A DNA stretch of 64,000 bases from Methylobacterium sp. Leaf465 (GTDB lineage Bacteria; Pseudomonadota; Alphaproteobacteria; Rhizobiales; Beijerinckiaceae), in NCBI RefSeq assembly GCF_001424705.1, contig NZ_LMRA01000002.1:62001-126000 (forward strand). Direction: 5' to 3'. Below the pieces are notes generated by a model. It was not told the DNA's origin. It saw nothing but the letters and a program-made list of their open reading frames with translations, and did no database searches. Made by a program: the position numbers and the translations under genes. Below, one piece after another: positions 47,676 to 64,000 of this stretch. Numbering within the stretch: position 1 is the first letter of the stretch; each line of letters begins with the position of its first letter.

Positions 47676-47830
47676 ACGACTCGCGCCGTCGCAGCCGGGC
47701 ACATTCGCCGGCAAAAGCGCGAAGGTGCTCGAAAACACCCGCCATCCTGGCTTGACTGTTGCGTATCGGGAACGGATCGCCAATTTTGCCGTTTCCAGGA
47801 CTAACTCTTCCTGTGACGGAGAACGCTCGC

Positions 47831-48232: not shown

Positions 48233-48278
48233 CGTCTCGCCGTCCGGGTGCGCTTTGCGCCCGGACCGGACGTCCATG

Positions 48279-48314
48279 ATCCCGCTGACGGTCGAAGCCG
48301 TCGGCGGGATTTTT
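48279..48314 (+). terminator. Rho-independent terminator
   Basis: ATCCCGC-x-GACGG pairs with CCGTC-x-GCGGGAT, followed by TTTTT. A second GC hairpin (GTCCGGG...CCGGAC) lies just upstream at 48242-48266. Confidence 0.85.
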
Positions 48315-48339
48315 CATTCCTTCAGGGGGTAGAACAGCG

Positions 48340-48663
48340 GTGAGCGGGAAAGCTGCGGGCTGGGATGCGTTGCCGATGACGGACGGAGGCAGCGAGACCG
48401 AGCATCTCGACCTCACCGGCTTGAAGTGCCCCCTGCCGGCCCTGCGGACCCGGAAAGCGCTGCGCCGGATGCCGTCCGACGCCGTCCTGGTGGTGACGTG
48501 CACCGATCCGATGGCGGGGATCGACATTCCGCATCTGGTCAGGGAGGAGGGCGACACCCTCCTCGCGCAGGCGCGGGACGCGGATCGGATGACGTTTACG
48601 ATCCGCAGAGGCCGCACAATCCCCGAGATTGTTGCCGAAAACACGCGCCTCACGCCTCATTGA
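48340..48663 (+). CDS. TusA family sulfurtransferase-like protein
   Basis: TusA-fold proteins relay sulfane sulfur, for example to tRNA thiolation or molybdenum-cofactor enzymes. The core has the signature LDLTGLKCPLPALRTRKALR (the CPxP motif with the persulfide-carrying Cys), VVTCTDPMAGIDIPHLV and a C-terminal strand (MTFTIRRG). The GTG at 48340 gives 107 residues; an ATG at 48376 would give 95, closer to the usual ~80. It is followed by the NUDIX gene on the same strand after 71 bases. Confidence 0.88.
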   Translation: MSGKAAGWDALPMTDGGSETEHLDLTGLKCPLPALRTRKALRRMPSDAVLVVTCTDPMAGIDIPHLVREEGDTLLAQARDADRMTFTIRRGRTIPEIVAENTRLTPH

Positions 48664-48734
48664 TGCGCCAACGCCCTGTTAGGGCCCTCCCATCCGGTCG
48701 CCGCAGCCTCGGCGATCCGACGGGGGAGAGCAGA

Positions 48735-49307
48735 ATGGCGCCGATTATCCGCGGCACCCGAATCGTGCACGACGGCTGGAGCCGGTTTCTCGTCGCCGAG
48801 GTGACGATGGACGACGGCACACGCCTGGCGCGCGAGATCGAGGATCACGGACGGGCGACAGCGGTACTGCCCTACGACCCGACCCGGCGGGTCGCCCTGC
48901 TGGTCGAGCAGTTCCGGACCCCGGCCTTCTATGCGGCTGGGGTCACCTCCGTGCTGGAGGTCCCGGCCGGCCTCCTCGACGAGTCGGAGCCCGAGGAAGG
49001 CGCACGGCGCGAGGCCTACGAGGAGACCGGCCTGCGTCTCGGTGCCCTCGAACCGGTGACCTGCGGCTGGAGCATGCCGGGAATCTCGACCGAGCAGATG
49101 GACCTGTTCCTGGCCCCGTACGAGGCGCCCGACCGGGTCGGTCCCGGCGGCGGCCTTGCCGGGGAGCATGAGGACATCACCGTTCGCGAGATGGCCCTGA
49201 GCGAACTTGCGGCCATGACGGATCGCGGCGAGGTCACCGACATCAAGACCCTGGCATTGATCCTGACCCTACGCCTGCGGCATCCGCACCTGTTCGCCGC
49301 GGCCTGA
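48735..49307 (+). CDS. NUDIX hydrolase, ADP-ribose pyrophosphatase-like
   Basis: The 190-residue product has a complete Nudix box starting GLLDESEPEEGARREAYEET (G-x5-E-x7-REUxEExGU), preceded by LLVEQFRTPAFYA. It is followed by the GISTEQMDLFLAPY motif that marks ADP-ribose pyrophosphatases and GDP-mannose hydrolases (NudF/NudK group). The nucleotide-sugar substrate cannot be separated by eye. Start ATG at 48735 follows GGGGGAGAGCAGA. Confidence 0.88.
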   Translation: MAPIIRGTRIVHDGWSRFLVAEVTMDDGTRLAREIEDHGRATAVLPYDPTRRVALLVEQFRTPAFYAAGVTSVLEVPAGLLDESEPEEGARREAYEETGLRLGALEPVTCGWSMPGISTEQMDLFLAPYEAPDRVGPGGGLAGEHEDITVREMALSELAAMTDRGEVTDIKTLALILTLRLRHPHLFAAA

Positions 49308-49322
49308 TACCTCCTCGACGCT

Positions 49323-50135
49323 TCAGGGCGTATCGGGCGCGCGCCGCGCGTTGGGGGTCGGACGCGGCCGGGCAGCATGGTGACGCTGGCGGGATGTCCC
49401 GAGCAGCGATCGGCGCAGGGCAATTCCGATCAGCCCCCAGGAGCGGACGAAGTAGCGGCGGAATAGCCGGTGCGGCGCGTGCCAGAACCGGAAGAACCAC
49501 TCGAGCCCGAAGCGCTGCATCAGGGCGGGCGCGCGGGGCACCAGCCCGGCCGCGACGTTCAGCGCTTCACCGACGGCCAGGACCACGGGACCGCCGAGGG
49601 CATTTCCTTGGCGGTCGACCCAGATTTCCGAGCGCGGCGCACCGACGCCGAAGACCAGGAGGGTCGTCCCGTGCGCCCGCACCGCCGCACAGAGTTGCGC
49701 CCCATAGGTCTCATCGTTCTCGAATCCGAAGTGCGGCACCGTGAAGGCGATCGACGCGCGCGGGATCCCCTCCGCCACCAGGCGCTCGGTGAGGTGGAGC
49801 CCGACGGCCTCCGTCGAGCAGACGAGGAAAATCTGCTGGCCGGCAGGCCATGGCGCAGCGAAGGCGGCCGCGATCAGATCGTGGCCCGTGACCCGCTGTG
49901 CCGATCGGCCCCCGCGGAGCCGGGCGAGCCAGACGAGGGGCATGCCGTCGAGGGTGTGAGCGACGGCGCCCTCATACGCTTTCCGGAACGCCGCGTTCTC
50001 CGACAGCGTAACGATGTGATCGAGGTTCGCGGTGACGATCATGCGCGGCCGAGTCGCCGGCTGGCGGGCCGAGGTCGCGAGGATGTCGGAGGCCGATCCG
50101 GGCGTGAACGTGATGTCAAATAAGCGAACGCTCAT
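49323..50135 (-). CDS. WecB/TagA/CpsF family glycosyltransferase
   Basis: The 270-residue product belongs to GT26, which adds UDP-activated ManNAcA, Glc or similar sugars to lipid-linked precursors. Conserved blocks are NLDHIVTLSENAAFRKAYEGA, HTLDGMPLVWLARLRG (catalytic Asp region), VTGHDLIAAAF, FLVCSTEAVG and LLVFGVGAPRSEIWVDRQGN. A basic C-terminal tail (RLFRRYFVRSWGLIGIALRR) probably gives membrane association. Start ATG at 50135. It is the last gene of a leftward exopolysaccharide locus. Confidence 0.9.
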   Translation of the reverse strand: MSVRLFDITFTPGSASDILATSARQPATRPRMIVTANLDHIVTLSENAAFRKAYEGAVAHTLDGMPLVWLARLRGGRSAQRVTGHDLIAAAFAAPWPAGQQIFLVCSTEAVGLHLTERLVAEGIPRASIAFTVPHFGFENDETYGAQLCAAVRAHGTTLLVFGVGAPRSEIWVDRQGNALGGPVVLAVGEALNVAAGLVPRAPALMQRFGLEWFFRFWHAPHRLFRRYFVRSWGLIGIALRRSLLGTSRQRHHAARPRPTPNARRAPDTP

Positions 50136-50279
50136 GTCATCGCCTTTGGGACCTGTCCCGTGCGCACCCCGAGGATGAGCGACGGGAACCCGGGGCTGAT
50201 CCATCGCGCCTCGGGGGAGGCTGGCGCGGGGGAGGTTTGAGGGGATCGATCGTGGGAGCCGTGGCGGACGGCGCTGCGT

Positions 50280-51761
50280 TCAGGCATCGACAGCTCGGAA
50301 GCTGCGGGCCCCGGTCGACCCGCTCGTCCGAGGCGGACGGGTCATCACGCGTCGGTCGCGACGGGCCCCGAGCCAGAGAGCGGCGGCGGCGCCGAGACCC
50401 ATGCCCAGTAGCAGGGCGAGCGGCAGCACCAGCTTGGGGGAGGGTGGCCAGGCTCGGCTCCGCGGCGGCGTCGCCGTCGAAATGACCCGCACGTTGGAGC
50501 TGTTCACGCGCTCCTGTTCGTTGGTCTCCCGTGAGCGGCGCAGGAATGCCTCGTAGATCGACCGCCGGGCATCGAGCTCGCGCTCGAGTTCGCGCAGGCC
50601 GACATTGGCGCGATCGTTGCCCGCCGTCTCGGTCTTGGCCCGCTCCAGGCTCCGGCGTACGGCGGACTCGCTCGCCACGGCCCGGTCGTAGTCCTTCTGC
50701 GAGGTGTCGATGATGCGCTCCTTCTCGCGCTGGATCAGGCGTTGTAGATCGCGCTGCTGCGCATACTGGTCGGCCATGGCCGGGTGGCGGTCGCCGAGGC
50801 GCTGGGCGAGTTCCGCGGTGTTGCGCGAGAGCGTCGCGTATTGCTGCCGCAGGTTCTGCATCTCGAGGGATTGCAGCATCTCCGGCAGGGCGGTCCCGGC
50901 TTCGCCGGTGCGCATGTGCCGCGCCTGATCGAGGCGGGCCTTGGCCTCGGCCATTTTCAGGGTCGCGGTGACGAGCTGTTGGTTGAGGTCGCTGAGCTGC
51001 TGGTCGCTCAGGAGGCGCCCGCTCGACGTCACCAGCTTGTTCGTCACCCGATATTGCAGGACCCTGCGCTCGGCCTCCTCGACCGATTGGCGCAGCGTCG
51101 TCAAACGGCCCGACAGGGCCTCGGAGACACGGCGCGCCGCATCGGTGCGCGCTGCCGCATCCTCCGCGAAATACGCGTCCGCGATGGCATTGGCGATCCG
51201 GGCCGACTTCTCCGGGTCCCGGGTCTGGACGTAGACGTCGATGACGAATGTCCGTTCGGCCCGACGCACGCCGAGCTTGAGGCGGAGGTTGTCGAGGGCG
51301 AGATTGACCGGCTCGCGGCTCGCCGGCGGCGGCTCCATGCCGAGGAGCGCCTTGAGGCTCAGCACCAGAGGATTTGTCGAGGCTGCGGGAACGAACTCCT
51401 CGTCCCGCGTCAGATCGAGGCGGTCGATGACTCGCCGCAGGACGTTGTCGGACTGCATCACCCGCGTCTGGCTCTCGGCGATCGAGACGCCGCTATCCGC
51501 CTGGGGCTGCCGGTTGCTCAAGTCGTTCTGGATCACCGGAAGATCGGCCGGATCGACCAGGATCTGCGTCACGGCGGTGTAAGTCGGTGTCACGGCGTTC
51601 AGCAGCACCACGGCGAGGATCACGGCCGCGAGCCCGCCGAGCAGGATCACGCCGGTGCCGCGCCACAGGCGACGCAGGATCAGGCCGCTGTCGAGCCCGC
51701 TCGGTACTCTGGTCTCGAGGATCACCGGCTCGCCACGGACCGGGCTTCCGAAGTCGAACAT
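50280..51761 (-). CDS. Wzz/GumC-type exopolysaccharide chain-length protein
   Basis: The 493-residue product has the polysaccharide co-polymerase layout. A first transmembrane helix (GVILLGGLAAVILAVVLLNA) and the YTAVTQILVDP beta segment come first. A long periplasmic coiled coil (~200-420) contains LERELDARRSIYEAFLRR. A second transmembrane helix near the end (LVLPLALLLGMGLGAAAALWLG) is preceded by a Pro-rich segment (ATPPRSRAWPPSP). No tyrosine-kinase domain is attached, unlike many Wzc proteins. It controls polymer length or export with neighbouring transferases. Confidence 0.92.
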   Translation of the reverse strand: MFDFGSPVRGEPVILETRVPSGLDSGLILRRLWRGTGVILLGGLAAVILAVVLLNAVTPTYTAVTQILVDPADLPVIQNDLSNRQPQADSGVSIAESQTRVMQSDNVLRRVIDRLDLTRDEEFVPAASTNPLVLSLKALLGMEPPPASREPVNLALDNLRLKLGVRRAERTFVIDVYVQTRDPEKSARIANAIADAYFAEDAAARTDAARRVSEALSGRLTTLRQSVEEAERRVLQYRVTNKLVTSSGRLLSDQQLSDLNQQLVTATLKMAEAKARLDQARHMRTGEAGTALPEMLQSLEMQNLRQQYATLSRNTAELAQRLGDRHPAMADQYAQQRDLQRLIQREKERIIDTSQKDYDRAVASESAVRRSLERAKTETAGNDRANVGLRELERELDARRSIYEAFLRRSRETNEQERVNSSNVRVISTATPPRSRAWPPSPKLVLPLALLLGMGLGAAAALWLGARRDRRVMTRPPRTSGSTGARSFRAVDA

Positions 51762-52074
51762 CTGTCTCGTCTCCCGACCTGGTCGCCGCTCGCGCGGTTC
51801 TTGTCTTCCGCCTCGAACAACTCTGTTCCAGTTTTGTCGCCGGTCTGTTTCGAAACGGAACAGGCGCCCACCGAAAAGTCCTCAACAACGTCGTCTGCGC
51901 AGAACCTATGCCAAGGGAGCTGCTGCGCTGTGCGTCGCGATGGCCGCACCCCACGATGTTCTCGTCCAAGCCGGGAATCGAGATGATATTGGCAAGAACA
52001 GGCTTGATGACAGGTTGCGATCTACGTAGTCCGCCGGACCTTCGTCATTTGCCTGTGCACAACTGCGCCCGACG
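51762..52074. other. Intergenic region with an inverted repeat (313 bp)
   Basis: No supported gene. It lies upstream of the Wzz-type gene and downstream of the glycosyltransferase ending at 52075. CTGTTTCGAAACGGAACAG at 51845-51863 is a near-palindrome (arms CTGTTTCG and CGGAACAG, one mismatch) about 85 bases before the Wzz start and could be an operator. The region is less GC-rich, as expected for a promoter. Confidence 0.4.
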
Positions 52075-53181
52075 TCATGCTGGGTCATGATTGGGTGGCT
52101 GTACGAGCCGATCTTCCGCGACCTCGTAGGCGGATGGGCCGACCTTTAGAAATGTCGAGAAACACGCCGCGTCCCCGGCGGCCAAGCGGTTCCAGCGTGC
52201 CACGTTGGCCCGGGCGGCCGCCGGGACCCCTGCGAATGCGGGATTCTCGACCCAAGCGAGGATCGCGGCCGCGGCACCCTCCGGATCGGAGGGTTCGATC
52301 TGCAAACCGGAGCCGGCCAGGACTTCGGAGAAGACCGGTCCGTGCGGTGAGACGACCGGAAGCCCGCCGTGCTGAGCCTCGAGGAGCGGCAACCCGAGCC
52401 CCTCGGCCTTCGAAGTCGAGAGCAGGAGATGACACCGGGCGACGAGGCCGCGCAGGGCCCCGTCGTCGAGATAGCCGTGCAGGGTGAGGAACGGCGGCGG
52501 TGCGGCGAGAAACGCATGGTGTCCCCAGCCGACCCGGCCGACCACATGGAGTTCCGCCGCGACCCCGCCCGCATTCAGGGCTGCGACGATCGCGAGCGCG
52601 GACGGGTAGTCCTTCCGCGGCTCGATGGTCCCGATGCAGAGCAGCCGAAGCGGCATGCCGGGGGCGGGCGGCGGGCCTGCGGGCAGGTCGGTGAGTCCGA
52701 ATACATCGCGCACGGCGGGCCGCAGCAGGGCCACCAGGGCCTCGCGGGCGCAGAAGGTCCTTACCGCCTCTCCGGTGGTGCGGGAGTTGACGAGGAAGGT
52801 GCGCCCGAAGCGCAGCGCGAAGGCGAAGCTCGGCGCCATGTAGAGGCGGCTCTTCCAGCTGAGGTCGTTTGGGCGCGTCAGCAGAAAGGTGTCGTGCACA
52901 TACGTGATGCATTGGCGACGGCGCAGGACCGAGAGCGGCCCCGGGGGGAACCCCGGAAAGAGGAACAGGGCCGAGGGATCGCGCAGGGCCCGTAGGGGCA
53001 GGCCGAGATGCTGGGCCGCGATCATGCCGGCGATCCCGCGCGCCCGGACCGTGGTGACAGGGTGCGGATGGAGCGTGTCGGACGTGAACAGGTCGAGGGC
53101 GACGCGCTCGATCCCGGTGACGTGCCCGCGCAGATGGGTGTGATCGAGATAGAGGCGGCGCGGCTCGGACGGCACGGTCAT
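52075..53181 (-). CDS. Family 4-type (GT-B) glycosyltransferase
   Basis: The 368-residue product starts MTVPSEPRRLYLDHT at the ATG overlapping the previous stop (ATGA). It has the N-terminal HLRGHVTGIERVALDLF glycine loop of GT-B enzymes, a middle segment YVHDTFLLTRP, and the C-terminal nucleotide-sugar domain with LCIGTIEPRKDYPSAL, LHGYLDDGALRGLVARC and the E-x7-E motif in STSKAEGLGLPLLEAQHGGLPV. It probably adds a sugar to the exopolysaccharide repeat. Confidence 0.9.
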   Translation of the reverse strand: MTVPSEPRRLYLDHTHLRGHVTGIERVALDLFTSDTLHPHPVTTVRARGIAGMIAAQHLGLPLRALRDPSALFLFPGFPPGPLSVLRRRQCITYVHDTFLLTRPNDLSWKSRLYMAPSFAFALRFGRTFLVNSRTTGEAVRTFCAREALVALLRPAVRDVFGLTDLPAGPPPAPGMPLRLLCIGTIEPRKDYPSALAIVAALNAGGVAAELHVVGRVGWGHHAFLAAPPPFLTLHGYLDDGALRGLVARCHLLLSTSKAEGLGLPLLEAQHGGLPVVSPHGPVFSEVLAGSGLQIEPSDPEGAAAAILAWVENPAFAGVPAAARANVARWNRLAAGDAACFSTFLKVGPSAYEVAEDRLVQPPNHDPA

Positions 53182-55277
53182 CGCGCCTCTCCGCCGGGAA
53201 CGGGCCGGAACGTTCTCCGAAGCGCCGCGACCGCGTAGAGGAGCCGGCGCAGCCACGGCGGCATGTCGCGACCCACGAGAGCGTGCTTGGCCCGCCGGGC
53301 CAAGCGGACTCCCCGCGACGCGTCGCCGGGGATCAGGCCCGTACGTCCGGGCGCGCGGTCCAACGCCATCGCGAAGGTCGACAGCATCTCCGGCGCGAAG
53401 CGGAGACGTCCGGCCCCGGCCGAGGCCGGCAGGATCCCGCGCGCGACGAACACGTCGTTCAGGCGCATCGCACAGGCGGCGTGGCTGTTGCGGCTCTCGA
53501 GGGCGATCCGCCCCAGGGCTCCCAGGCGTCTGCGCTCGGAAGCATCGGCGATCAGCGCTCGGAGTGCGTCCTCGAGGGCGCCCCCGTCCGGTGAGACGAG
53601 GCGGCCCGAGACCCCGTCCAGGACGGCGGTGGCGAGACCGGTAGTGCGATAGGCGACGGTCGGAGTTCCGCACAGCCCGGCTTCGACGGGGGTTTGGCCG
53701 AACGTCTCCTGGCGGCTCGCCGTGATGGCGAGATCACAGGCACCGTACCAGGCTGCCAGCGTCGCCTCGTCGCCGATGGGACCCGCCGCGATCAAATCCG
53801 GGATTCCCAGGGAATCCGGATCGTCGAGCCGCCCGACCGCGACGAAACGGAGCCCCGGCCGGGCGACCCGGCGCAGGATCGCGGTCAGCTCGGTGGTCCC
53901 CTTGCTGGGCGCGTCCGCGATCACGGCGGCGAACATGACGAGGACGTCACCGGACGGCAAGCCGAGTTCGCGCCGCAGGGCTTCCCGCGATCCGGGCCGG
54001 AACACCCCCGTCGGAAAAGCCAGGTCGATGCGGTGGACGCGTGTCCCCTCCGGCGCCAGCGCGCGCGCCGCGGATTCCGACCAGTCGGAGGCCGCGAGCA
54101 GGAAGGGTCCCTCGGGTCCCGCGAGGATCGCCTGCTTTTCCGCATAAACGCCGGCGATCCGCTGCGGCAGCAACTGCGGATAGGCGTTGGGCGAGGGGCA
54201 GCGGGCGTCGCATCCCTCGGCGATGATCGGGCAGCCGGACGGGGAGGCGCAGCGCCCGGTGACGGGGAAGAGATCGTGCAGAACGGCGGCGACCGGAACG
54301 GTGCGGGCGAGCCGCCCCAGGATCGTGGTGCGGCGGGTCGCGCCATGAAGGTTACCCGCCAGGACAACATCGTAGCCGCCCTGCGACAGGGCATGCTCCG
54401 TCTGCGGAAACCGCTCGACCCACTCGGCCGCGGCCGGCGGCGATTCTGCCCCGAGGCAGTGATCGCCGACGGCGTGGCCGGCAAGGGCAAGCGCATCGCA
54501 TAGGCGCCGGTGGGCGATCCCGGCGCCGCCAAGCTGACCCTGGTCGGTCAGGCTAGCCACCGAGAGGCCGGAGGCCATCGCGGGCGCAACGTTGCCCGGC
54601 GCATAGTGCAGGAGCACCGGTCGGCCTACGCGTGCGAGTGCGGCGCCCTGTCGGACGAGGTGGGGCCAGAGGGCGGCTACTGGATGCGCGGCCTCGGGGT
54701 CGAGGCCGCCGGCGGCCTGCACGCAGGAGCGCTTGAGCAGAACCTCGCCGCCGGTGAAGGGAGCGAGCGGCCCGTCCGGCGGCGCGGGATCGACGAGCGT
54801 CCCCGGCGCCGCCGCCGGTGCGTCGAGACCGAGTGGTCCCATATCGAAGACGACTCGCAGGCCGACGACGACATCGGCGCCACTGAGAAGGAATTGCAGG
54901 CCAAGGGCCGCGAGCGCATCCGGGGCCAGAAGATCCCCCGGACGAAGGACCAGAAGAGCGTCCCACCCCTCGTCCGCGACGATGACGGGCAACTGCACCG
55001 CGCCCTCTGCCAACGGGATGAGGTCGTGGCGGAGGTTCGGATAGCCCTGAGCCTCCACGGACGCCCGGGTGGCGGCGAGCGGCCCGTCGCACGAGCCATG
55101 GACCAGCGTGACGACACGCAGGCGAGGCCAGGCACGATTCGTCAAGGGCGGAACGACCAGAGCGGGACGGGGTGGTCCGAAGGGCCAGGCCGCGATGCCA
55201 TGCGCACGGGGTCCGAAGCGGTCCGCGACTCCATCGACCGTCGGCTGCGCGACGGATCTGTCCGATAAGTCCGTCAC
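53178..55277 (-). CDS. Two-domain glycosyltransferase (GT-A-like plus GT-B)
   Basis: The frame is open from a GTG at 55439; I use the GTG at 55277 because the sequence further upstream looks non-coding, but the start is uncertain. Residues ~45-260 resemble a family 2 transferase (LRVVTLVHGSCDGPLAATRASVEAQGYPN, LVLRPGDLLAPDALAAL, FTGGEVLLKRS) without a clear DxD motif. Residues ~265-640 form a GT-B transferase with LGGAGIAHRRLCDALALAGH, VLHDLFPVTGRC and the C-terminal ITASRQETFGQTPVEAGLCGTP (E-x7-E). A cysteine-rich loop (CASPSGCPIIAEGCDARC) in the middle is a mark of a particular GT4 subset. The tail is basic. Confidence 0.85.
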   Translation of the reverse strand: MTDLSDRSVAQPTVDGVADRFGPRAHGIAAWPFGPPRPALVVPPLTNRAWPRLRVVTLVHGSCDGPLAATRASVEAQGYPNLRHDLIPLAEGAVQLPVIVADEGWDALLVLRPGDLLAPDALAALGLQFLLSGADVVVGLRVVFDMGPLGLDAPAAAPGTLVDPAPPDGPLAPFTGGEVLLKRSCVQAAGGLDPEAAHPVAALWPHLVRQGAALARVGRPVLLHYAPGNVAPAMASGLSVASLTDQGQLGGAGIAHRRLCDALALAGHAVGDHCLGAESPPAAAEWVERFPQTEHALSQGGYDVVLAGNLHGATRRTTILGRLARTVPVAAVLHDLFPVTGRCASPSGCPIIAEGCDARCPSPNAYPQLLPQRIAGVYAEKQAILAGPEGPFLLAASDWSESAARALAPEGTRVHRIDLAFPTGVFRPGSREALRRELGLPSGDVLVMFAAVIADAPSKGTTELTAILRRVARPGLRFVAVGRLDDPDSLGIPDLIAAGPIGDEATLAAWYGACDLAITASRQETFGQTPVEAGLCGTPTVAYRTTGLATAVLDGVSGRLVSPDGGALEDALRALIADASERRRLGALGRIALESRNSHAACAMRLNDVFVARGILPASAGAGRLRFAPEMLSTFAMALDRAPGRTGLIPGDASRGVRLARRAKHALVGRDMPPWLRRLLYAVAALRRTFRPVPGGEAR

Positions 55278-55632
55278 GCTTGCCCGATCACCCTTCGCCC
55301 GACCACTGCTTGCCTGGGCGCCGTCGGGAATGCCGAGGGCCGCCGCACAGGATGCGGGGGAAGATCTGAATCGTCCGTATGCGCGGAGCTGAATTCCGGC
55401 GGACGACCCCGACGTACCCCCAACGTGCGATCGCCTCACTCCAGACGGACAGTCCGAGCGGACAGGGGCTTGCCTGTCACGCGAACGCGCGGGCCGAATT
55501 TTCAGGCGAAGAGGGACGTCGATCGGCCGAGATCGTGACGTCGCGAGGCGCTCCCGTCAGGATAATTCGCACGAAAAGCCGGACAGCTTCTGGTGTTCGA
55601 TGATCTCGGGAAAGACAGGGTCTTGATGATAC
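55278..55632. other. Region without a supported gene (355 bp)
   Basis: Short overlapping frames only. I see no riboswitch or terminator with a T run. It is bounded by the glycosyltransferase start and the tRNA-Pro remnant, and probably includes the promoter of the exopolysaccharide genes. Confidence 0.5.
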
Positions 55633-55679
55633 TGGTCGGAGTGGCAGGATTTGAACCTGCGACCCCCACGTCCCGAACG
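55633..55679 (-). pseudogene. Truncated tRNA-Pro(CGG) 3' half, att-like site
   Basis: On the minus strand the sequence from CGTTCGGGACGTGGGGGTCG through a complete T arm (GCAGG-TTCAAAT-CCTGC) to CACTCCG-A-CCA is the 3' half of a tRNA-Pro with CGG anticodon. The 5' side is absent: the base pairs needed for the anticodon stem (CCACG) and the acceptor strand (CGGAGTG) are not present to the right of 55679. Such 3' fragments with CCA are left at one end when an element integrates into a tRNA gene. Confidence 0.8.
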
Positions 55680-55828
55680 GCGTGCCCGCCCATTTCCACC
55701 TCGCGCCACCCGGTTCGGGTCCCATCTGAGAATCGCGATTCAGACAACGTTCTCAACCCCTAAGGTAGGGAACCCCGTGCCGTGCCGTTCCGCGGGGTGC
55801 CCTACCATTCCGCTCCGTTCCGCCCTGA

Positions 55829-55850
55829 AAACTTGGCGCAAACTTGGCGC
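55829..55850. repeat. Tandem 11-bp direct repeat
   Basis: AAACTTGGCGC occurs twice head to tail (55829-55839 and 55840-55850), 150 bases inside the presumed element end. Repeated GTTCCG motifs lie just to the left. Paired short direct repeats near an att core are typical arm-type binding sites of tyrosine recombinases, but no recombinase gene is visible. Confidence 0.5.
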
Positions 55851-55887
55851 GGCGTGCTTCATTCTCCGCACGCCCTGGCGGCCTTCG

Positions 55888-56652
55888 TCAGCCCCTGCTC
55901 CGCTCCTGGTAGGTCTCGACGAGGAACGTCGCGATGGCGCCGGCCGCGTTGACTGCGAGGCTCGCGTGCCGGGGCGACGGTCGGACCCGGGGCCGCTCCT
56001 CCGTCGGCGGGTCGTCGGCATGCGCATCCGAGAACCGGTTCCGCAGGGTGCCGAGCCCGTTCACCAGGTTCATGGCGCCGCCGAGGATGGCCCGGATCGG
56101 CTCCTCCCGGTGCTGGTCAGGGGCGAGCTTCAGTCCGCGGGCGACGGCGCCGTAGAGCTTGGGCAGATCGTCCTTCGGGGCGTAGGCGATCCCGAGCCCG
56201 TCGAGGATATGCTTGCACACCGCCTCCAGCAGAGTGCGCGCGACCGTGATGGCGCCCTCGGGATCGGCGGTCCGGCGCGCCAGGGCCTTGGCCCAGACCG
56301 CATGCACGCCGTCGGCGTCGAACGAGGCGAGCGCGTCCCCTACGACAGCGTCCCCGGGAGCCCGGTTGCGCCCTTCGAGGTGGTCCATGACCGGTGCGAA
56401 GGCATCCCGTATGTAGGTCCGCCGCTCCTCGTACCGGTCAAGCCGAGGCTTGATGTGGGACCAGAACGCCCCGAGATCGCGGCAGGTCCGGACGAACTCC
56501 GGCAGCATTGGCTTGAGCTCGCCGTCGGCGAGGACCTCCCGGCGCAGGTACTCGTAGGCGTGTCCGTCGGGCGAGCCCCCGGTCGCCCGCGAGGTGAGGA
56601 TACCCTCCATCATCGCCACCTGCTCGATGCGGGTCTCGGGTATGTCGTCCAT
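55888..56652 (-). CDS. Abortive-infection (Abi_C domain) protein (254 aa)
   Basis: Start ATG at 56652 (MDDIPETRIEQ); an upstream one at 56739 would add 29 residues. The C-terminal ~120 residues carry the Abi_C pattern: AITVARTLLEAVCKHIL, LPKLYGAVARGLKLAPDQHREEPIRAILGG, then GLGTLRNRFSDAH and a closing helix AGAIATFLVETYQ. Abi_C proteins are found in phage-exclusion systems. The N-terminal ~130 residues are helical and not recognised. It is the first gene inside the tRNA-Pro-bounded segment. Confidence 0.75.
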   Translation of the reverse strand: MDDIPETRIEQVAMMEGILTSRATGGSPDGHAYEYLRREVLADGELKPMLPEFVRTCRDLGAFWSHIKPRLDRYEERRTYIRDAFAPVMDHLEGRNRAPGDAVVGDALASFDADGVHAVWAKALARRTADPEGAITVARTLLEAVCKHILDGLGIAYAPKDDLPKLYGAVARGLKLAPDQHREEPIRAILGGAMNLVNGLGTLRNRFSDAHADDPPTEERPRVRPSPRHASLAVNAAGAIATFLVETYQERSRG

Positions 56653-56760
56653 CGGGTCCCTCAGCGTTGCGCCCAGGCTATCGTCGTGCCGCGAGGGGTG
56701 CACGTGCGCACGCGAGATGCGCGCACGGTAACTCTCCACGTGGCAGGCTGATGCACCTAG

Positions 56761-57333
56761 CTAAAAGTCGATGTCCCGGAGCGCCTCGGCGTCCTCCGGC
56801 AGGATCTCGCCCGTGCTGCGTGCCACGGGCTTGACCGTTGGCTTCCTGACCCTCGGCTTCGGGTCCCAAGGGTATGGCGGCCCGTAGGCCTCCAGCCACA
56901 TAGCGCGTTTGGGAAGCCATGTTTCAGCGCTATATAGAGCCTTGGCTACTCGCACCTGTCCGGCCTCGCAATAGAGGAATCGCTGCGTGTAGCGCATCTC
57001 GCCATACCGCCGCTCATCCTTGCGGCGCTTCACCGAGACTATGAGCGGCGTCTCGTCATACCGTGCTCGGAACTCGTCTCCGAACTTGTCGAAGATCAAG
57101 CACAGCCCGACGGTTTCATGAGTGTCGGGCGCGCGGAAAAGCTTGGCCTTGAATGGCTGCTTCATGAGGACTGCCCTAGCATCGTCCGTGATGTCAGCCC
57201 TCTGCCAGTGGTGGTTACGCTGCAGGACGGCTGGGTCCGAGGTGACCAAGCGCTCGAAGAACTCAAACCTGGGACTCAGGCTCAGTCTTACCGCCTCGGG
57301 TTCGAACCACCGGAATTTGCGCCATCTCGACAT
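56761..57333 (-). CDS. Hypothetical protein (190 aa), island gene
   Basis: Not recognised. Start ATG at 57333 (MSRWRKFRWFEPEAVRL). The first third is basic and aromatic (RFEFFERLVTSDPAVLQRNHHWQRADIT). The centre has strands TVGLCLIFDKFGDEFRARY and PLIVSVKRRKDERRYGEMRYTQRFLYCE, and a Pro/Lys-rich tail follows (KPRVRKPTVKPVARSTG). The DNA is visibly less GC-rich than the flanks (around 56900-57050), with codons such as ATA and TTG that are rare in neighbours. Acquired DNA is inferred. Transcribed leftward with the Abi_C gene, 108 bases apart. Confidence 0.6.
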   Translation of the reverse strand: MSRWRKFRWFEPEAVRLSLSPRFEFFERLVTSDPAVLQRNHHWQRADITDDARAVLMKQPFKAKLFRAPDTHETVGLCLIFDKFGDEFRARYDETPLIVSVKRRKDERRYGEMRYTQRFLYCEAGQVRVAKALYSAETWLPKRAMWLEAYGPPYPWDPKPRVRKPTVKPVARSTGEILPEDAEALRDIDF

Positions 57334-57516
57334 GTGAGTTGAGTACCGTGGCGGCGGTTACCGGGCACTCAACGCTGCGGCCGGTCCCGCCTTACCAGAG
57401 TATTAAACCACAGGCCGGGAATCCGACGATCCGTTTTGCCAACGCCAGATCCGACCCTGGCAAGGTGCCCTCCATCGGCTCGGGCGGTCCCCGGGCCTCA
57501 GTGTGGGGAGTGCGAC

Positions 57517-58167
57517 ATGCGCGGCATCAAGCTCGTGGGGGACTACGTTTTCGAGAGGATCGGACTGGAGGCCCAGGAGGTGTACCGGCAGAACTTGCTG
57601 CAGGCGATCAGGGGCGACTGCGACGACCCACTACACAACAAGCTCGGCAATGTAGGCGCGGGCGTAAGTACCTCTTCCCTGGACGAGAACGGGCAACTCA
57701 GCGACGACCGCCTGAGGGACTACCTTGACTCCATGCATCTCGCTCGGGTGGATTCGGCGTACTCTGACGACTGGTACTGGCGGTTCGTCCTCGAACTTGC
57801 GTTCCAACGCAGGGGTTTTGGGTCCTTTCAAGAGCGGGTTCGCCCTCTCTACGTGCAGGCTACCGGCATGAGCGACAGGTTCGCGTTCTCGGATGAGGGG
57901 CAGACGTTCTGCGAACAACTCATGCACGCGTGGCTGCACCTCCCGGGGTGCCGGGAATTCGGCTTCTCGCTGACGCCGGCGTCGATCAGGCTCTACGAGC
58001 GGGCTGGTATCGCGCCGCACGTCGCGGTGATCCCGGCAAAGCGGGGCGGCACGCCCACGGCCTATGTGTCGGACGAACTCCGGGAGGCGCTAGCGACCTG
58101 GAAAGGGCGCTCGGAGGGCTCCTCGGTTGGTCGCCGCTTGCGCAGGCCGAGTCTGCTGTCCGCATAG
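57517..58167 (+). CDS. Hypothetical protein (216 aa), island gene
   Basis: Not recognised. The ATG at 57517 (MRGIKLVGDYVFERIGL) is chosen over one at 57436 because the added part looks like translated non-coding DNA. The protein is predominantly helical, acidic in the first half (SDDRLRDYLDSMHLARVDSAYSDDWYWRF), and has no signal or membrane segment. Its tail is basic (RRLRRPSLLSA). It is divergent from the gene at 56761-57333 with 183 bases between starts, so they may share a control region. Codon use is mixed, and transfer is inferred from position. Confidence 0.6.
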   Translation: MRGIKLVGDYVFERIGLEAQEVYRQNLLQAIRGDCDDPLHNKLGNVGAGVSTSSLDENGQLSDDRLRDYLDSMHLARVDSAYSDDWYWRFVLELAFQRRGFGSFQERVRPLYVQATGMSDRFAFSDEGQTFCEQLMHAWLHLPGCREFGFSLTPASIRLYERAGIAPHVAVIPAKRGGTPTAYVSDELREALATWKGRSEGSSVGRRLRRPSLLSA

Positions 58168-58379
58168 GCCCGCACCAGGTCCTCGTAGCTGCGGACGCCC
58201 CGGCCCCAGACGATGGGCTCCCGCATCGACGCGGGGAACCGCGGGCAGGCTATGCGGAACAGCTTCCGAATCCTTGCAGACGCTGGGAAGATCCGCTTTC
58301 CGGCAGCTTGGTGGACGTAGACCTACGACTGCAACGGGTGGTTATCGGCCTGTCAGCTTTGGGGGGCGCGAATTGAGAA

Positions 58380-58439
58380 AGCGGACGCTTGCTTCGAAGT
58401 CACCGCGAGTTGGCTCGCAGCGAGCCGCAAGCCTCCGCT
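58380..58439 (-). terminator. Long imperfect hairpin after the monooxygenase gene
   Basis: AGCGGACGCTTGC (58380-58392) pairs with GCAAGCCTCCGCT (58427-58439), with one mismatch in the middle, and an inner stem GGCTCGC/GCGAGCC lies within. Read leftward it follows the stop of the gene ending at 58444 and is followed by TTTCTC, so it can act as terminator. On the + strand it is followed by CTTTT. Confidence 0.6.
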
Positions 58440-58443
58440 CTTT

Positions 58444-59841
58444 TCATGACGCGGCCAGCAAGGCCTCCGGCGTCCCGCGGCGGAAGACCGCTCCGGGATG
58501 GCTTGCCTTCAGGAGTGGGCCGCTGCCAGGGAAAAGCTTCTCGCGCAGTGTGCCCTCCGAATACTGAGTCTTGAAGGCGCCACGCGTCTGGAGTTCCGGC
58601 ACGACGAGGTCGACGAAAGCTTCCAGGGTTTCCGGCGCTACCGCGCGGGTCAGGTTGAAGCCGTCGGCGTCAGTGGCCTCGGCCCAGGCGACGAGTTCGT
58701 CGGCGACTTCCGAGGGCGCGCCGACGATGAAGGGCGCCCGGGCCCCGCGCGGGCCGAACGCGGCGAAGTCCGCCCGGGTGAAGGGCCGCTCCCCGGCCTG
58801 CGTCAGGGTCTCCACCAGGGACTGCATGGCGTTCGTCTGGACATAGGCGAGGCCCTCTTCGGGCCCAAGGGTCGAGAGGTCGATGCCGGTCCAGCCCGAG
58901 ACCAGGGCGAGCTGGCCCTCGACGTCGATGTAGCGCGCATACTCGTCGCGTAAGGACAGGGCCTCGGCGCGGGTCGGCGCCACGATCACCGTGGCGCCGA
59001 GGAACATGCGGATGTCGTAAGGGTCACGCCCGGCGGCGCGGGCCGCCTCGCGCAGGTCGCGCACGGCCTTGGCGGCGAGCGGCTTCGTCTGGCCGTTGAA
59101 GAACACGGCCTCGGCGTGGCGCCCCGCGAAGAGCTTGCCCCGCCGGGAGGTGCCCGCCTGGTAGAGCACCGGCGTGCGCTGGGGCGAGGGCTCGGCGAGG
59201 TGGCGGCCGTCGACGCGGTAGTAAGGACCGTCGTGCCGGATGCGGTGGACCCGTTCCGGATCGGTGAAGACGCCGCCGGCCCGGTCGCGCCGCACGGCGC
59301 CCGCCTCCCAGCTGCCCTCCCACAGCTTGTAGGCGGCCTCCAGAAAGTCGTCCCCCGCCTCGTAGCGGGTGTCGTGCGCCCGGGCCGTGTCCTGGCCCAT
59401 GCCGCGGGCGCCGCTCTCGAGATAGCCGGTGACGATGTTCCAGCCGACCCGGCCGCCGGTGAGGTGGTCGAGGGTCGTGATCCGGCGGACGAAGGGATAG
59501 GGGTGCTCGTAGGTCAGGTTGGCGGTGACGCCGAAACCAAGATGGCGCGTCGCCTGCGCCATGGCGGGCACCAGCAGGAACGGATCGAGATTGGGCGCCT
59601 GCGCGGCCCGCGCCAGGGCCGTGTCGGCGCTGCCGCCGTAGACGTCGTATTGCCCGAGCACGTCGGCGAGGAAAATTCCGTCGAAGAGGCCGCGCTCGGC
59701 GGTGCGCGCCAGATCGACCCAATAGTCGAGGCTGTTATAGGCGCTGCCGGTGTCGCGCGGATGCCGCCACAGGCCGGCCCAGGTATGGCCCGGCGAGGCC
59801 ATCTGGAAGGCGTTCAGCCGCAATTCTCGGCGCGTCGTCAT
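58444..59841 (-). CDS. NtaA/DszA-type FMN-dependent monooxygenase
   Basis: The 465-residue product is a luciferase-like (LLM class) flavin monooxygenase of the NtaA/SnaA/DszA/DmoA group. Group-specific blocks are LNAFQMASPGHTWAGLWRHP, GLFDGIFLADVLGQYDVYGG, LTGGRVGWNIVTGYLESGARG, YQAGTSRRGKLFAGRHAEAVFF and a C-terminal VPELQTRGAF. These enzymes use FMNH2 from a separate reductase to oxidise organosulfur or chelate compounds. It is divergent from the SfnB-type gene across a 264-bp control region. Confidence 0.88.
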   Translation of the reverse strand: MTTRRELRLNAFQMASPGHTWAGLWRHPRDTGSAYNSLDYWVDLARTAERGLFDGIFLADVLGQYDVYGGSADTALARAAQAPNLDPFLLVPAMAQATRHLGFGVTANLTYEHPYPFVRRITTLDHLTGGRVGWNIVTGYLESGARGMGQDTARAHDTRYEAGDDFLEAAYKLWEGSWEAGAVRRDRAGGVFTDPERVHRIRHDGPYYRVDGRHLAEPSPQRTPVLYQAGTSRRGKLFAGRHAEAVFFNGQTKPLAAKAVRDLREAARAAGRDPYDIRMFLGATVIVAPTRAEALSLRDEYARYIDVEGQLALVSGWTGIDLSTLGPEEGLAYVQTNAMQSLVETLTQAGERPFTRADFAAFGPRGARAPFIVGAPSEVADELVAWAEATDADGFNLTRAVAPETLEAFVDLVVPELQTRGAFKTQYSEGTLREKLFPGSGPLLKASHPGAVFRRGTPEALLAAS

Positions 59842-59900
59842 CGGAGGATCCGTCCGCAGGGTGGGAAGGTCAGGGTATTGGTCCCGTCCATCCGGTCAAC

Positions 59901-59912
59901 AAGAACGTTCTT
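59901..59912. promoter_or_regulatory. 12-bp perfect palindrome in the divergent control region
   Basis: AAGAACGTTCTT is a perfect dyad between the divergent organosulfur genes, 60 bases before the start of the leftward one. The region 59900-60040 is AT-rich for this genome. A regulator site is inferred; there is no regulator gene in the visible part of the cluster. Confidence 0.4.
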
Positions 59913-60105
59913 TTTCTCAAGGCCTTTGCAGGAGCAGGATCGTTCATTCATAGATGATCGAAGAGATATGCGTCCCAAACTGGTATGATATCACGGTATT
60001 ATCGGCATGAAGACTTGAGTTTTAAGCGATAATCCCGGATTCCAACGGCTGCCGCCGCGTCTGGTCCGTTGGTTCGGACGCGGCTCAGGACGGGATTGCA
60101 GGATC

Positions 60106-61323
60106 ATGTCGCAAACGGATGCGGGCTGGGGTGCCGGCCCGAGCGCTCGCTACGAGGACCTCGCCGCACGCTTCCGACCGGCCTTCGCCGAGATCCGTGC
60201 GACCGCCGTGGCCCGGGACGGCGAACGCCGGTTGCCGCATGCCGAGATCGGCTGGCTCAAGGAGGCGGGCTTCACCACCCTTCGGCTACCGGAAGCGGCG
60301 GGCGGGCACGGGGCGAGCCTGCCCGAACTGTTCAACCTACTGATCGAGCTCTCGCAGGGGGATTCCAACGTCACCAACGCGTTGCGTGCGCATTTCGGGT
60401 TCACCGAGGACGTGCTGTGCTCGACCTCGCCCGAATGGCGGGCGCGCTGGACCGCGCGGATCGCCGCGGGCCAGACCATCGGCAGCGGCGTCTCGGAGAC
60501 CGGGGAGGCCAAGGTCGGCCAGTTCGACACCATCCTCCGCCGGCGCGGGGCCGAGCGGGTCGTCGACGGCCGGAAGTTCTATACGACCGGCTCGCTCTTC
60601 GCAGACTTGATCCACCTCTCGGCCCAGGACGAGGACGGCGCGCCCGTGGTCGCGGCGGTCTCGACCCAGGCCCCGGGCGTTTCCATCGAGGACGACTGGG
60701 ACGGGTTCGGGCAGGCGCTGACGGCGAGCGGCACCGCGCATTTCACCGGGGTGGTGGTCGAGGCCGATTGGATCAAGCCGGACCCGGCGCGCTTCCCCTA
60801 CGCCATGGCGTTCTTCCAGCTCGTGCACCTCGCGACTCTTGCCGGCATCGGCCGGGCGGCGGCCGAGGACGTCGCCCGGCTGGTGGCCGAGCGACGGCGT
60901 GTCTACAGCCACGGCAATGCCGGGCGCACCGGCGACGACCCGCAGATCCAGGCGGTCGTCGGCCGCGTCCGGGGCAACGCCTACGCGGCCGGCGCCATCG
61001 TGCTGAAGGCGGCCGAGGCGGTGCAGCGGGTGTTCGAGGCCCGCCGCGACGGGGCCGATCCGACGGGCCCGGCCGCGCTCGCCGACGTCGAGGTCAACCA
61101 GGCGGTCACGGTAGTGACGAACCTCGTGCTGGAGGCCACCACCGGCCTGTTCGACGCGCTCGGCGCCTCGGCGGTGAAGGAGGGCCTGGGCCTCGACCGC
61201 TACTGGCGCAACGCCCGCACCATCGCCTCGCACAATCCGCGGATCTACCGCGACCGCATCGTCGGGGCCTTCGCGGTCAACGGCACCGCGCCGCCGCGCG
61301 AGTACCGCGTCGGTTCGGCCTGA
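60106..61323 (+). CDS. SfnB/DszC-type flavin-dependent sulfur acquisition oxidoreductase
   Basis: The 405-residue product has the acyl-CoA dehydrogenase fold: N-terminal helical domain (FRPAFAEIRATAVARDGERRLPHAEIGWLKEAGF), a middle beta domain (IGSGVSETGEAKVGQ, VDGRKFYTTGSLFADLIHLSA) and a C-terminal helical domain. The usual catalytic Glu is not obvious. The close is DRYWRNARTIASHNPRIYRDRIVG, typical of SfnB and DszC, which are flavin-dependent oxygenases in organosulfur use. The ATG at 60106 follows AGGATC. The next gene follows after 12 bases. Confidence 0.88.
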   Translation: MSQTDAGWGAGPSARYEDLAARFRPAFAEIRATAVARDGERRLPHAEIGWLKEAGFTTLRLPEAAGGHGASLPELFNLLIELSQGDSNVTNALRAHFGFTEDVLCSTSPEWRARWTARIAAGQTIGSGVSETGEAKVGQFDTILRRRGAERVVDGRKFYTTGSLFADLIHLSAQDEDGAPVVAAVSTQAPGVSIEDDWDGFGQALTASGTAHFTGVVVEADWIKPDPARFPYAMAFFQLVHLATLAGIGRAAAEDVARLVAERRRVYSHGNAGRTGDDPQIQAVVGRVRGNAYAAGAIVLKAAEAVQRVFEARRDGADPTGPAALADVEVNQAVTVVTNLVLEATTGLFDALGASAVKEGLGLDRYWRNARTIASHNPRIYRDRIVGAFAVNGTAPPREYRVGSA

Positions 61324-61335
61324 GGTCAGCCCGCG

Positions 61336-62700
61336 ATGCCGGCCCGCTCCGACCGCATGCGCCTCGGCGCCTTCCTGTATCCCGGCGGGCACCACGTCGC
61401 GGCCTGGCGGCACCCGTCCGCCCAGGCCGATGCCGGGGTCAACGCCGCGCATTACCGGCGGATCGCCAGGACGGCGGAGGCGGCGAAGTTCGACCTGATC
61501 TTCCTCGCCGACGGCGTCGCCGTCCGGGGCGAGGACATCGACGCCCTCAGCCGGACGGCGATCCGCTACGTCGGGCAGTTCGAGCCCCTGACCCTACTCT
61601 CCCACCTCGCGGCGGTGACCGAGCGGATCGGCCTCGTGGCCACGGCCTCCACCACCTACAATGAGCCGTTCCACGTCGCCCGCAAGTTCGCCTCCCTCGA
61701 CCACCTCAGCGAGGGCCGGGCCGGCTGGAACCTCGTGACCTCGGCCGATCCGCGCGAGGCTTGGAACTTCAGCCGCGAGAGCCACCTCGCCCATGGCCAC
61801 CGCTACGCCCGGGCGGAGGAATTCGTCGACGTGGTCCGCGGCCTGTGGGATTCCTACGCGGACGACGCCTTCGTGCGCGACCGGGACTCGGGTCGGTTCT
61901 TCGACCCGGACCGACTGCACCTCCTGGCCCACGAGGGCGCGCACTTCTCGGTGCGCGGGCCCCTCAACGTGCCACGCCCTCCGCAGGGCCACCCGGTCGT
62001 GGTGCAGGCCGGCTCCTCCGAGGCCGGCAAGGCACTGGCCGCCCGCACCGCCGAGATCGTCTTCACCGCGCAAGAGACCCTGGCAGACGCGACCGCCTTC
62101 TACGCCGACGTGAAGGGCCGCATGGCCGGCTTCGCGCGCGACCCCAACCATCTCAAGATCATGCCCGGCGCCTTCCCGGTCGTCGGGCGCACGGAGGGCG
62201 AGGCCCAGGACCGCTACGGGGCATTGCAGGACCTGATCCACCCCGTGGTCGGCCGCTCGCTGCTCGAACAGCTCGCCGGCGCCGACCTGTCGGCCTATCC
62301 GGACGACGCCCTGGTGCCCGACCTGCCCGAGACCGAGGGCGGCAAGAGCCGGCAGGCCCTGATGCTGACGCTGGCGCGGCGCGAGGGGCTGACCATCCGC
62401 GAGCTCTACCTGCGCATCGCCGGCGCTCGCGGGCACTGGACCCTGGTCGGCACCCCGGGCCAGATCGCCGACGCGCTGCAGGAGCATTTCGAGGCTCACG
62501 GCGCGGACGGCTTCAACATCATGCCGCCGACCCTACCCGGCGGCCTTGACGATTTCGCCACCCTGGTGATCCCCGAGCTCCAGCGCCGCGGCCTGTTCCG
62601 CACGGACTACGAGGGCCGCACCCTGCGCGAAAACCTCGGATTGCCGCGCCCGCCCCATCGCCACCCCGCCGCCGCGATCCGGGTGCCGGCCGCCCCGTGA
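61336..62700 (+). CDS. Second NtaA/DszA-type FMN monooxygenase
   Basis: The 454-residue LLM-class enzyme starts MPARSDRMRLGAFLYPGGHH. Blocks shared with the gene at 58444-59841 are FDLIFLADGVAVRGED, ASTTYNEPFHVARKFASLDHLSEGRAGWNLVTS, VVVQAGSSEAGKALAARTAEIVFTA and VIPELQRRGLFRTDY, but the two are clearly diverged. This cluster order is common where sulfonates, sulfones or dibenzothiophene-like compounds are used as sulfur source. Substrate not readable. Confidence 0.9.
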   Translation: MPARSDRMRLGAFLYPGGHHVAAWRHPSAQADAGVNAAHYRRIARTAEAAKFDLIFLADGVAVRGEDIDALSRTAIRYVGQFEPLTLLSHLAAVTERIGLVATASTTYNEPFHVARKFASLDHLSEGRAGWNLVTSADPREAWNFSRESHLAHGHRYARAEEFVDVVRGLWDSYADDAFVRDRDSGRFFDPDRLHLLAHEGAHFSVRGPLNVPRPPQGHPVVVQAGSSEAGKALAARTAEIVFTAQETLADATAFYADVKGRMAGFARDPNHLKIMPGAFPVVGRTEGEAQDRYGALQDLIHPVVGRSLLEQLAGADLSAYPDDALVPDLPETEGGKSRQALMLTLARREGLTIRELYLRIAGARGHWTLVGTPGQIADALQEHFEAHGADGFNIMPPTLPGGLDDFATLVIPELQRRGLFRTDYEGRTLRENLGLPRPPHRHPAAAIRVPAAP

Positions 62701-62735
62701 TTCCGTCCTCCTCCCCGCACCAGGACCCTGAGCCC

Positions 62736-63740
62736 ATGACGATCCGCCAGCGGCGCCGCCACGCCTCGCACACCCGCCGCACCCTCCTCGCCCTCGCCTG
62801 CGCGGCCCTCCTGCCGCTGGGCGCGGCCCGCCGAAGCGAGGCCGCCGAGGTGACGGAGGTTCGCCTCGACTGGGCGACCTACAACCCGGTCAGCCTCGTC
62901 CTGAAGGACAAGGGCTTCCTCGAATCCGCCCTGAAGGCGCGCGGCATCGCCGTGCGCTGGACGCAGTCGCTCGGCTCGAACAAGGCGCTCGAATTCCTGA
63001 ACGGCGGGGCCATCGACTTCGGCTCCTCGGCCGGGGCGGCCGCCCTGCTGGCGCGCATCAACGGCAACCCGGTCAAGGCGATCTACGCCTACTCGCAGCC
63101 CGAATGGACCGCCCTGGTAACCACGAAGGACAGCGGCATCCGGACGCCCGCGGACCTCAAGGGCAAGCGGATCGCGGTGACGCGGGGCACCGATCCGCAC
63201 ATCTTCCTCATCCGCGCCCTGCAGGGCGCCGGGCTCACCGAGAAGGACGCCAAGCTCGTCCTGCTCCAGCACGCCGACGGCCGCACCGCCCTGGAGCGCG
63301 GCGACGTCGACGCCTGGGCCGGCCTCGACCCGATGATGGCGGCCTCGGAGATCGAGGGCAGCACCCGTCTGTTCTTCCGGGACCCGGCCGCCAACACCTG
63401 GGGCGTCCTCGACGTGCGCGAGGATTTCGCCAAGGCCCATCCGGACCTCGTGAAGATCGTCATCGCCGCCTACGAGCAGGCGCGCACCTACGCGATCGCC
63501 AACCCGGAGGCCGTGACGCGCGCCCTGGTGGCCGCGACCAAGCTGCCCGAGGCCGTGATCGCCCGCCAGCTCGCCCGCACCGACCTGAGCCGGCCCGAGA
63601 TCGGCCGGGTCCAGGCCGAGAGCATCCGGGCGGCGGGCCTCGCATTGCAGCAGGCCGGCGTGATCCCGGCGGAGACCAACGTGGCCGCCGCCGTCGATGG
63701 GCTCATCGATCCCCGCTTCACCGCCGGATCCGAGCGGTGA
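62736..63740 (+). CDS. Aliphatic-sulfonate-type ABC transporter substrate-binding protein
   Basis: Start ATG at 62736 (MTIRQRRRHA); a GTG at 62697 overlapping the previous stop is an alternative. The signal peptide is LLALACAALLPLGAARRSEA. The mature protein has the SsuA/TauA-type core TEVRLDWATYNPVSLVLKDKG, TQSLGSNKALEFLNGGAIDFGSSAGAAALLARI and IRTPADLKGKRIAVTRGTDPHIFL. SsuA-like proteins capture sulfonates or related sulfur compounds in the periplasm. It overlaps the permease gene by GTGA. Confidence 0.9.
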   Translation: MTIRQRRRHASHTRRTLLALACAALLPLGAARRSEAAEVTEVRLDWATYNPVSLVLKDKGFLESALKARGIAVRWTQSLGSNKALEFLNGGAIDFGSSAGAAALLARINGNPVKAIYAYSQPEWTALVTTKDSGIRTPADLKGKRIAVTRGTDPHIFLIRALQGAGLTEKDAKLVLLQHADGRTALERGDVDAWAGLDPMMAASEIEGSTRLFFRDPAANTWGVLDVREDFAKAHPDLVKIVIAAYEQARTYAIANPEAVTRALVAATKLPEAVIARQLARTDLSRPEIGRVQAESIRAAGLALQQAGVIPAETNVAAAVDGLIDPRFTAGSER

Positions 63741-64000
63741 GCGCGGGAACCGCGTCCCCGCTCCTCGCGTCCGGCGCGGATGGCGACGGCGCCGCTCCGG
63801 CACCGGCCGGGCTGCACCCGTCCTGGCGACGGGATGCCGGGCGCACGGGCGGGCGCCTCGTCCTCGGAATCCTGATCCCCCTGGTCCTCGCCATCGGCTG
63901 GGAGCTCGCCATCCGGTCCGGCCTTACCCAGGGGCGGCTGCTGCCGCCGCCGAGCCGGGTCCTCGGGACGCTGCTGGCGCTGGCCCAATCCGGCGATCTC
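63737..64000 (+). CDS. ABC transporter permease (SsuC-like), N-terminal part
   Basis: The GTG at 63737 overlaps the stop of the substrate-binding gene. The 88 visible residues have a long Ala/Gly-rich N-terminus, a first transmembrane helix (LVLGILIPLVLAIGWELAI) and LPPPSRVLGTLLAL, the P-P-s-x-V motif typical of SsuC/TauC permeases just after the first helix. The gene runs off the right edge, and the ATPase gene is expected beyond it. Confidence 0.88.
   Translation, partial: MSAGTASPLLASGADGDGAAPAPAGLHPSWRRDAGRTGGRLVLGILIPLVLAIGWELAIRSGLTQGRLLPPPSRVLGTLLALAQSGDL

Follow-up and report, generated by a model that had tools for sequence, protein, structure and literature searches.

An Abi_C/HEPN gene and two recurrent protein families at a putative tRNA-Pro island end in Methylobacterium sp. 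Leaf465

In the genome of Methylobacterium sp. Leaf465 an Abi_C-domain gene lies next to two genes without assigned function. The original prediction took the three for a possible phage-defence module directly inside the end of an integrated island. The locus raises the question whether these genes belong together as one system or are neighbours for another reason.

Gene content and edges of the island segment

The window, i.e. the whole stretch of 64,000 nucleotides that was analysed, corresponds to C2:62001-126000 of a 5.06-Mb draft genome with 48 contigs. Positions below refer to the window, and "genus" in genome counts means Methylobacterium in the broad sense. The features of the locus are as follows.

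55630..55679, minus strand: attachment-site core, consisting of the 3′ part of tRNA-Pro(CGG) and 3 bases beyond it; all 50 bp agree with the intact tRNA-Pro of contig C10
55828..55850, no strand assigned: tandem AAACTTGGCGC repeats, read from the sequence; putative integrase arm sites
55888..56652, minus strand: Abi_C/HEPN protein, 254 aa from ATG 56652
55888-56739, minus strand: the longer Abi open reading frame with GTG start
56020..56043, minus strand: HEPN catalytic motif RNRFSDAH (Rx6H), with R, N and H the same in all 9 aligned sequences
56212..56226, minus strand: second HEPN motif Ex3K (EAVCK), with E and K the same in all 9 aligned sequences
56761..57333, minus strand: orf190, divergent member of an island-protein family not yet seen outside this genus
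57517..58167, plus strand: orf216, member of a second island-protein family, likewise not yet seen outside the genus; alternative start at 57436
58177..58258, plus strand: island-type flank of orf216, 79% identical to the DNA after the orf216 homologue of locus L054
58319..58480, no strand assigned: onset of the genus chromosomal monooxygenase/transport cluster, from comparison with the right flanks of relatives

The three open reading frames proved to be genuine, at the positions first proposed for them, and show a coding pattern of the host type; GC3 is 0.89 for Abi, 0.77 for orf190 and 0.82 for orf216. The middle gene had been described as foreign-looking, and indeed orf190 is the most atypical of the three with a GC content of 60.9% vs. 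70.5% for the window (orf216: 64.1%). All three products had also been taken for soluble proteins, in agreement with the lack of any membrane-span-like stretch (highest 19-residue hydropathy 1.22 for Abi, 0.52 for orf190 and 0.61 for orf216).

The presumed island end was confirmed by the 3′ fragment of tRNA-Pro. Positions 55630-55685 are 96% identical to the region of the intact tRNA-Pro gene, and a 25-base probe of the fragment gave no chance match in 100 shuffles. A 47-base core pattern, with 3 mismatches allowed, occurs exactly twice in the whole genome, in the window and in the intact tRNA-Pro on C10. In the direct-repeat test for a tRNA-integrated island these two core copies sit on separate contigs. 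Since the window holds the sole other copy of the C10 tRNA-Pro 3′ core, the C10 site probably marks the opposite end of the island seen in the window. A motif similar to the AAACTTGGCGC repeats lies between tRNA-Pro and integrase on C10. The same tRNA-Pro fragment adjoins Abi in another genome (L063). To the left of the fragment in the window a glycosyltransferase locus is found, and its counterpart in genome G035 also abuts such a fragment. As a separate observation, genes for an integrase and a phosphoesterase come after the intact tRNA-Pro on C10 (G000, L003 9064-11588).

Island cargo throughout the region right of orf216 was considered and rejected, because the shared chromosome of the genus resumes there. 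For L008 chromosomal similarity begins at 58319; for nine other right-flank loci it sets in at about 58448-58481. All of these loci had been chosen for similarity to the flank of the window. The segment from 55630 to a point between 58259 and 58480 is interpreted as the displaced or decayed end of a tRNA-Pro island. The island remainder in the window measures about 2.7 kb and contains no integrase. Either rearrangement or decay suffices to explain such a short remnant, and a draft assembly cannot distinguish the two. A match to GGTTCGAACC at 57299 falls inside orf190 and was rejected as a tRNA.

The Abi_C/HEPN gene and the two protein families

The leftward Abi_C gene of the original prediction is supported by a match to Pfam PF14355 (4.1e-18; 65.7 bits, exceeding the curated cut-off of 24) and by the presence of both HEPN motifs. 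Translation more likely starts at ATG 56652 (254 aa) than at the upstream GTG 56739 (283 aa), because the aligned homologues begin there; homologues on three annotated plasmids are 254, 252 and 236 aa long. Eight homologues with 68-89% identity to the window protein were aligned with it. HEPN RNases are described as carrying an Rx4-6H motif, typically with a polar residue after the R, and, in many families though not all, Ex3[KR] (PMC3710099). Both patterns, including the polar residue, were found in Abi. AbiJ is counted among the HEPN families, and its N-terminal domains are proposed to be sensors or restraints (PMC3710099). All nine aligned Abi sequences match the PADLOC AbiJ model at some length. 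Like AbiJ, the window protein combines a C-terminal Abi_C domain, Rx6H and Ex3K with a separate N-terminal region, but its match to the PADLOC model (5.6e-18) is confined to 121 residues at the C-terminus (positions 165-279 of the 281 in the model) and is therefore not full-length. As PMC3710099 defines AbiJ by the HEPN domain together with varied N-terminal domains, this whole-length test bears on the PADLOC model only. A near whole-length match was obtained to phrog_23253 (3.7e-69). The Pfam search gave no assignment for the N-terminal part, and sequence search revealed no relative of solved structure. Judged from its domain and motifs, Abi belongs to a known family of predicted phage-defence RNases.

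Relatives of Abi are frequent on plasmids (80 records; in 18 of them a single place accounts for 80% of the query or more), and nine of the 12 plasmid matches listed are named "abortive infection family protein". Unlike these and the phrog_23253 proteins, the window copy is chromosomal and located at a tRNA-Pro attachment fragment. On the three annotated plasmids the neighbours of Abi differ; a recombinase gene is nearby in two, and in one a gene of unknown function overlaps downstream of Abi. The megaplasmid of M. extorquens AM1 carries an 87% identical copy; the stretch around it shows no listed genes, no tRNA and no T-loop match. No member of the orf190 or orf216 families was present in this megaplasmid stretch or in the three annotated plasmid stretches.

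The two other proteins had been said to match nothing recognisable, and in the searches made no phage structural or housekeeping family was matched. Neither orf190 nor orf216 gave a match in Pfam, PADLOC, PHROGs, NCBIfam, phages or plasmids. In order-wide searches of 249 genomes, each single sequence found itself and two weak matches only, one of which was inspected in translation for each protein. Among 111 genus genomes single orf190 found only itself, and single orf216 had matches in six. Pattern scans with the single sequences found nothing, either for orf190 in genome and viral contigs or for orf216 in viral contigs.

For orf190, the family profile became accessible by a motif common to L025, L065 and L104 that was noticed by eye. 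In the first single-sequence comparison L020 (0.0071) had outscored the true relatives (0.038); it was dropped as a relative, its translation reading like a penicillin-binding protein, i.e. an ordinary chromosomal gene. A leave-one-out profile, for which orf190 was withheld and four distinct genes were used (two of the five rows being near-identical), recovered orf190 with an E-value of 9.4e-8 among 6672 ORFs, a score reached by none of 5000 shuffles; this recovery is not a blind test, since the seeds were picked after the resemblance had been seen. The extended profile yielded 26 matches in 21/111 genus genomes, a count that excludes G035, seen only with a larger profile. Nine of the 26 matches came from outside the model and had values of 4e-25 to 9e-32. 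With the larger profile two of 297 genomes in the order sample were matched, both of them from the genus. Conservation within the family is low (23% mean column identity). Twenty-two members gave no match in Pfam or PADLOC, and one of them matches a PHROG of unknown function (7.5e-5). The structure model of orf190, based on one sequence, was too poor for a fold search (pLDDT 37). In L065 three divergent copies of the family lie in one stretch (12433-15226), which suggests rapid diversification.

The orf216 profile matched 20/111 genus genomes, and only its own genome among the 297 of the order sample. The order samples contain few members of the genus, so that restriction of both families to it holds as sampled. 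Methylorubrum zatmanii LMG 6087 carries a 53-55% identical copy of orf216 adjoining an integrase, and the L056 stretch has two copies of the family. The structure model, built from two sequences, was again too poor for a fold search (pLDDT 47). A weak match, L024, was dropped because its translation reads like an ordinary chromosomal protein. Weak matches to chains of solved structure, the best with E-values of 0.25, 1.7 and 1.6, were disregarded. Among the papers listed in searches on Methylobacterium islands, on phage defence and on Abi_C HEPN proteins, none describes either family as far as title and opening of the abstract show. Going by the searches and profiles, orf190 and orf216 appear to represent undescribed but recurrent island families, and Abi a known kind of predicted defence gene.

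Island settings of the three families

Across the genus, members of the Abi, orf190 and orf216 families mostly sit where an integrated island ends, close to the 3′ end of a tRNA gene or a piece of one, and an integrase and a metallophosphoesterase are often among their neighbours. Abi adjoins intact tRNA-Met in L060 and L062 and intact tRNA-Lys in L025 and L061; it adjoins the tRNA-Pro fragment in the window and L063, and a tRNA-Gly-like fragment (label read from the sequence) in L026, L064 and L065. A tRNA-3′-like site was found within 5 kb at 8/9 full-length Abi loci (at 48 to 311 bp), 18/21 orf190 loci and 17/22 orf216 loci. If an integrase within this distance is accepted as well, the counts are 8/9, 20/21 and 19/22. 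Five near-duplicates (L025, L073, L152, L097, L146) were left out of these site counts, as were Abi matches weaker than 1e-100, i.e. truncated copies in G284 and G325, at which no tRNA-like site was seen. One orf190 locus counted, L154, rests on a doubtful site of the GGTTCGAACC kind. None of 2700 random placements in nine stretches had a site nearby; this control comprises about 178 kb that is itself without any site, with window positions 45001-64000 left out. In that part of the window the pattern matches only the attachment fragment and GGTTCGAACC at 57299. The pattern overlooks a tRNA-Ser at 47471 and thus does not see every tRNA. As the GGTTCGAACC match lies inside orf190, the distances it gives for the window, 35 bp for orf190 and 138 bp for orf216, are false; the true site is about 1.1 and 1.8 kb away, respectively. 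No T-loop match was found near Abi in any of five other stretches (viral contig L029, the AM1 megaplasmid and three plasmids), which counts against a tRNA-bound reading.

Of the 54 stretches holding any of the three families, 20 also contain an AAA ATPase gene family (Pfam AAA). An exact second copy of the tRNA 3′ end closes two of six sister islands; for the other four none was found within the stretch compared. Islands bordered by tRNA genes have been described for Methylobacterium (PMC2680597), likewise with an integrase and foreign cargo; the three gene families treated here are not named in that island description. In G326 a tRNA-Met island of 45 kb (C1, ~4642221-4687244; L164, L165, L062) with an exact 48-bp repeat has Abi at one end and an integrase at the other.

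Do the three genes form a system?

Co-occurrence in other genomes had been suggested as a check of the proposed module, and its complete absence as a refutation. For the complete triple it was not found, since only one of 111 genus genomes, that of the window, holds all three families. That all three genes form one undescribed defence module agrees with their contiguity in two divergent transcription units, with an island class that carries defence genes, and with the recurrence of the divergent orf190/orf216 pair in L104. However, Abi and orf216 share one genome where 2.0 are expected, orf190 and orf216 share four where 3.8 are expected, and the divergent intergenic DNA of window and L104 shows no similarity (score 16, shuffle maximum 24). 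We regard such a module as highly improbable. Of the defence role proposed for the locus, the defence-type gene directly inside a tRNA island end is supported and the three-gene system is not. For these counts the Abi set comprised 11 of 17 matching genomes (E up to 2e-28, two truncated copies included; six weak ones left out). Abi and orf190 share five genomes (expected 2.1, P 0.03), but once the genome of the window and a near-duplicate are taken out P rises to 0.19, and G292, one of the five, has the two genes far from each other. Genome-level co-occurrence of the three families is not clearly above chance. Among loci with an orf190 member, an Abi match is present only in the window, L025, L061 and L065. 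In L025 and L061 an orf190-family gene lies directly upstream of Abi on the same strand, as in the window; these are near-identical copies in two genomes (304/313 residues) and count as one other lineage beside the window. Moreover, 33 of 41 bases at the orf190-Abi junction are identical between window and L061 (score 52, shuffle maximum 37), and the recurring order with a related junction is a hint of a functional pair. The orf190 domain of L025/L061 occurs as a fusion with a second domain, which has relatives encoded immediately upstream of Abi in L062 (3e-5) and L060 (0.01). Orf190 and Abi could on these grounds be a two-gene abortive-infection system in which orf190 detects phage or keeps the HEPN RNase in check and orf216 is a bystander. 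We consider this unlikely, as an orf190 member is missing from the stretches compared for six of the nine full-length Abi loci (L026, L029, L060, L062, L063, L064), and in L065 the pair is 2.4 kb apart with an integrase and a phosphoesterase in between.

It is possible, at rather less than even chances, that orf190 and orf216 are mobility accessory factors without a role in defence, for example in the control of excision or integrase. An integrase within 5 kb at 12/21 orf190 and 7/22 orf216 loci, a metallophosphoesterase within 5 kb at 12/21 and 6/22, and the finding of both families in this genus only among the samples searched are compatible with such a function. On the other hand, the low column identity of the orf190 family would be unusual for an excision factor, as would the several copies per stretch in L065 and L056, and the sole family match is the PHROG of unknown function hit by one orf190 member. 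This alternative is a special case of the explanation that we prefer, and the probabilities of both overlap. According to the preferred explanation, which we consider likely, the locus represents the end of a tRNA-Pro island after displacement or decay, with a stand-alone Abi and two island accessory proteins, and no dedicated three-gene system exists.

In the preferred explanation, the window segment would retain three accessory genes from families that live in such islands, mostly near their ends, and the three would be neighbours through island architecture. Abi would most likely be a stand-alone abortive-infection effector. Its N-terminal part may sense infection or keep the enzyme inactive; the C-terminal HEPN domain, with both motifs present, would then cut RNA, and growth would stop. 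Orf190 and orf216 would be fast-evolving island accessory proteins, with a role more likely tied to the island (maintenance, regulation, or defence and counter-defence) than to Abi. A long shot would be a two-part abortive-infection system at the ends of Methylobacterium tRNA islands, in which orf190-family proteins detect infection for the Abi_C HEPN RNases or hold them back; orf190, the domain fused to it and orf216 would then be exchangeable modules that share a single slot at the island end. Independently, a 160-aa gene was seen immediately upstream of Abi in L060 (7260-7742) and L062 (8668-9150); it is related to the C-terminal part of the L025/L061 fusion.

The two former orphans have become families of about 20 genomes each at a repeatable genomic address, which makes their function testable. 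Beyond this, the genus seems to possess a tRNA-targeted island family with phage-defence genes, which should be useful for finding further systems. Ten chosen neighbours from five loci were compared with PADLOC; four matched defence families strongly, two gave weak or generic matches and four none. The strong matches were SduA in L025, PDC-M02A and PDC-M02B in L060, and PDC-M48B in L054, so that three islands of this class carry Shedu or PADLOC candidate defence genes. Shedu (SduA) lies in the sister island near the orf190-Abi pair of L025 and was not seen in the window segment. In G027 a tRNA-Val island of 29 kb (C1, ~1945694-1974953; L161, L143) is closed by an exact 46-bp repeat. An orf190 member adjoins a phosphoesterase there, and the island also contains genes whose translations resemble proteins of the PAPS-reductase and cysteine-desulfurase types, which look dnd-like by eye.
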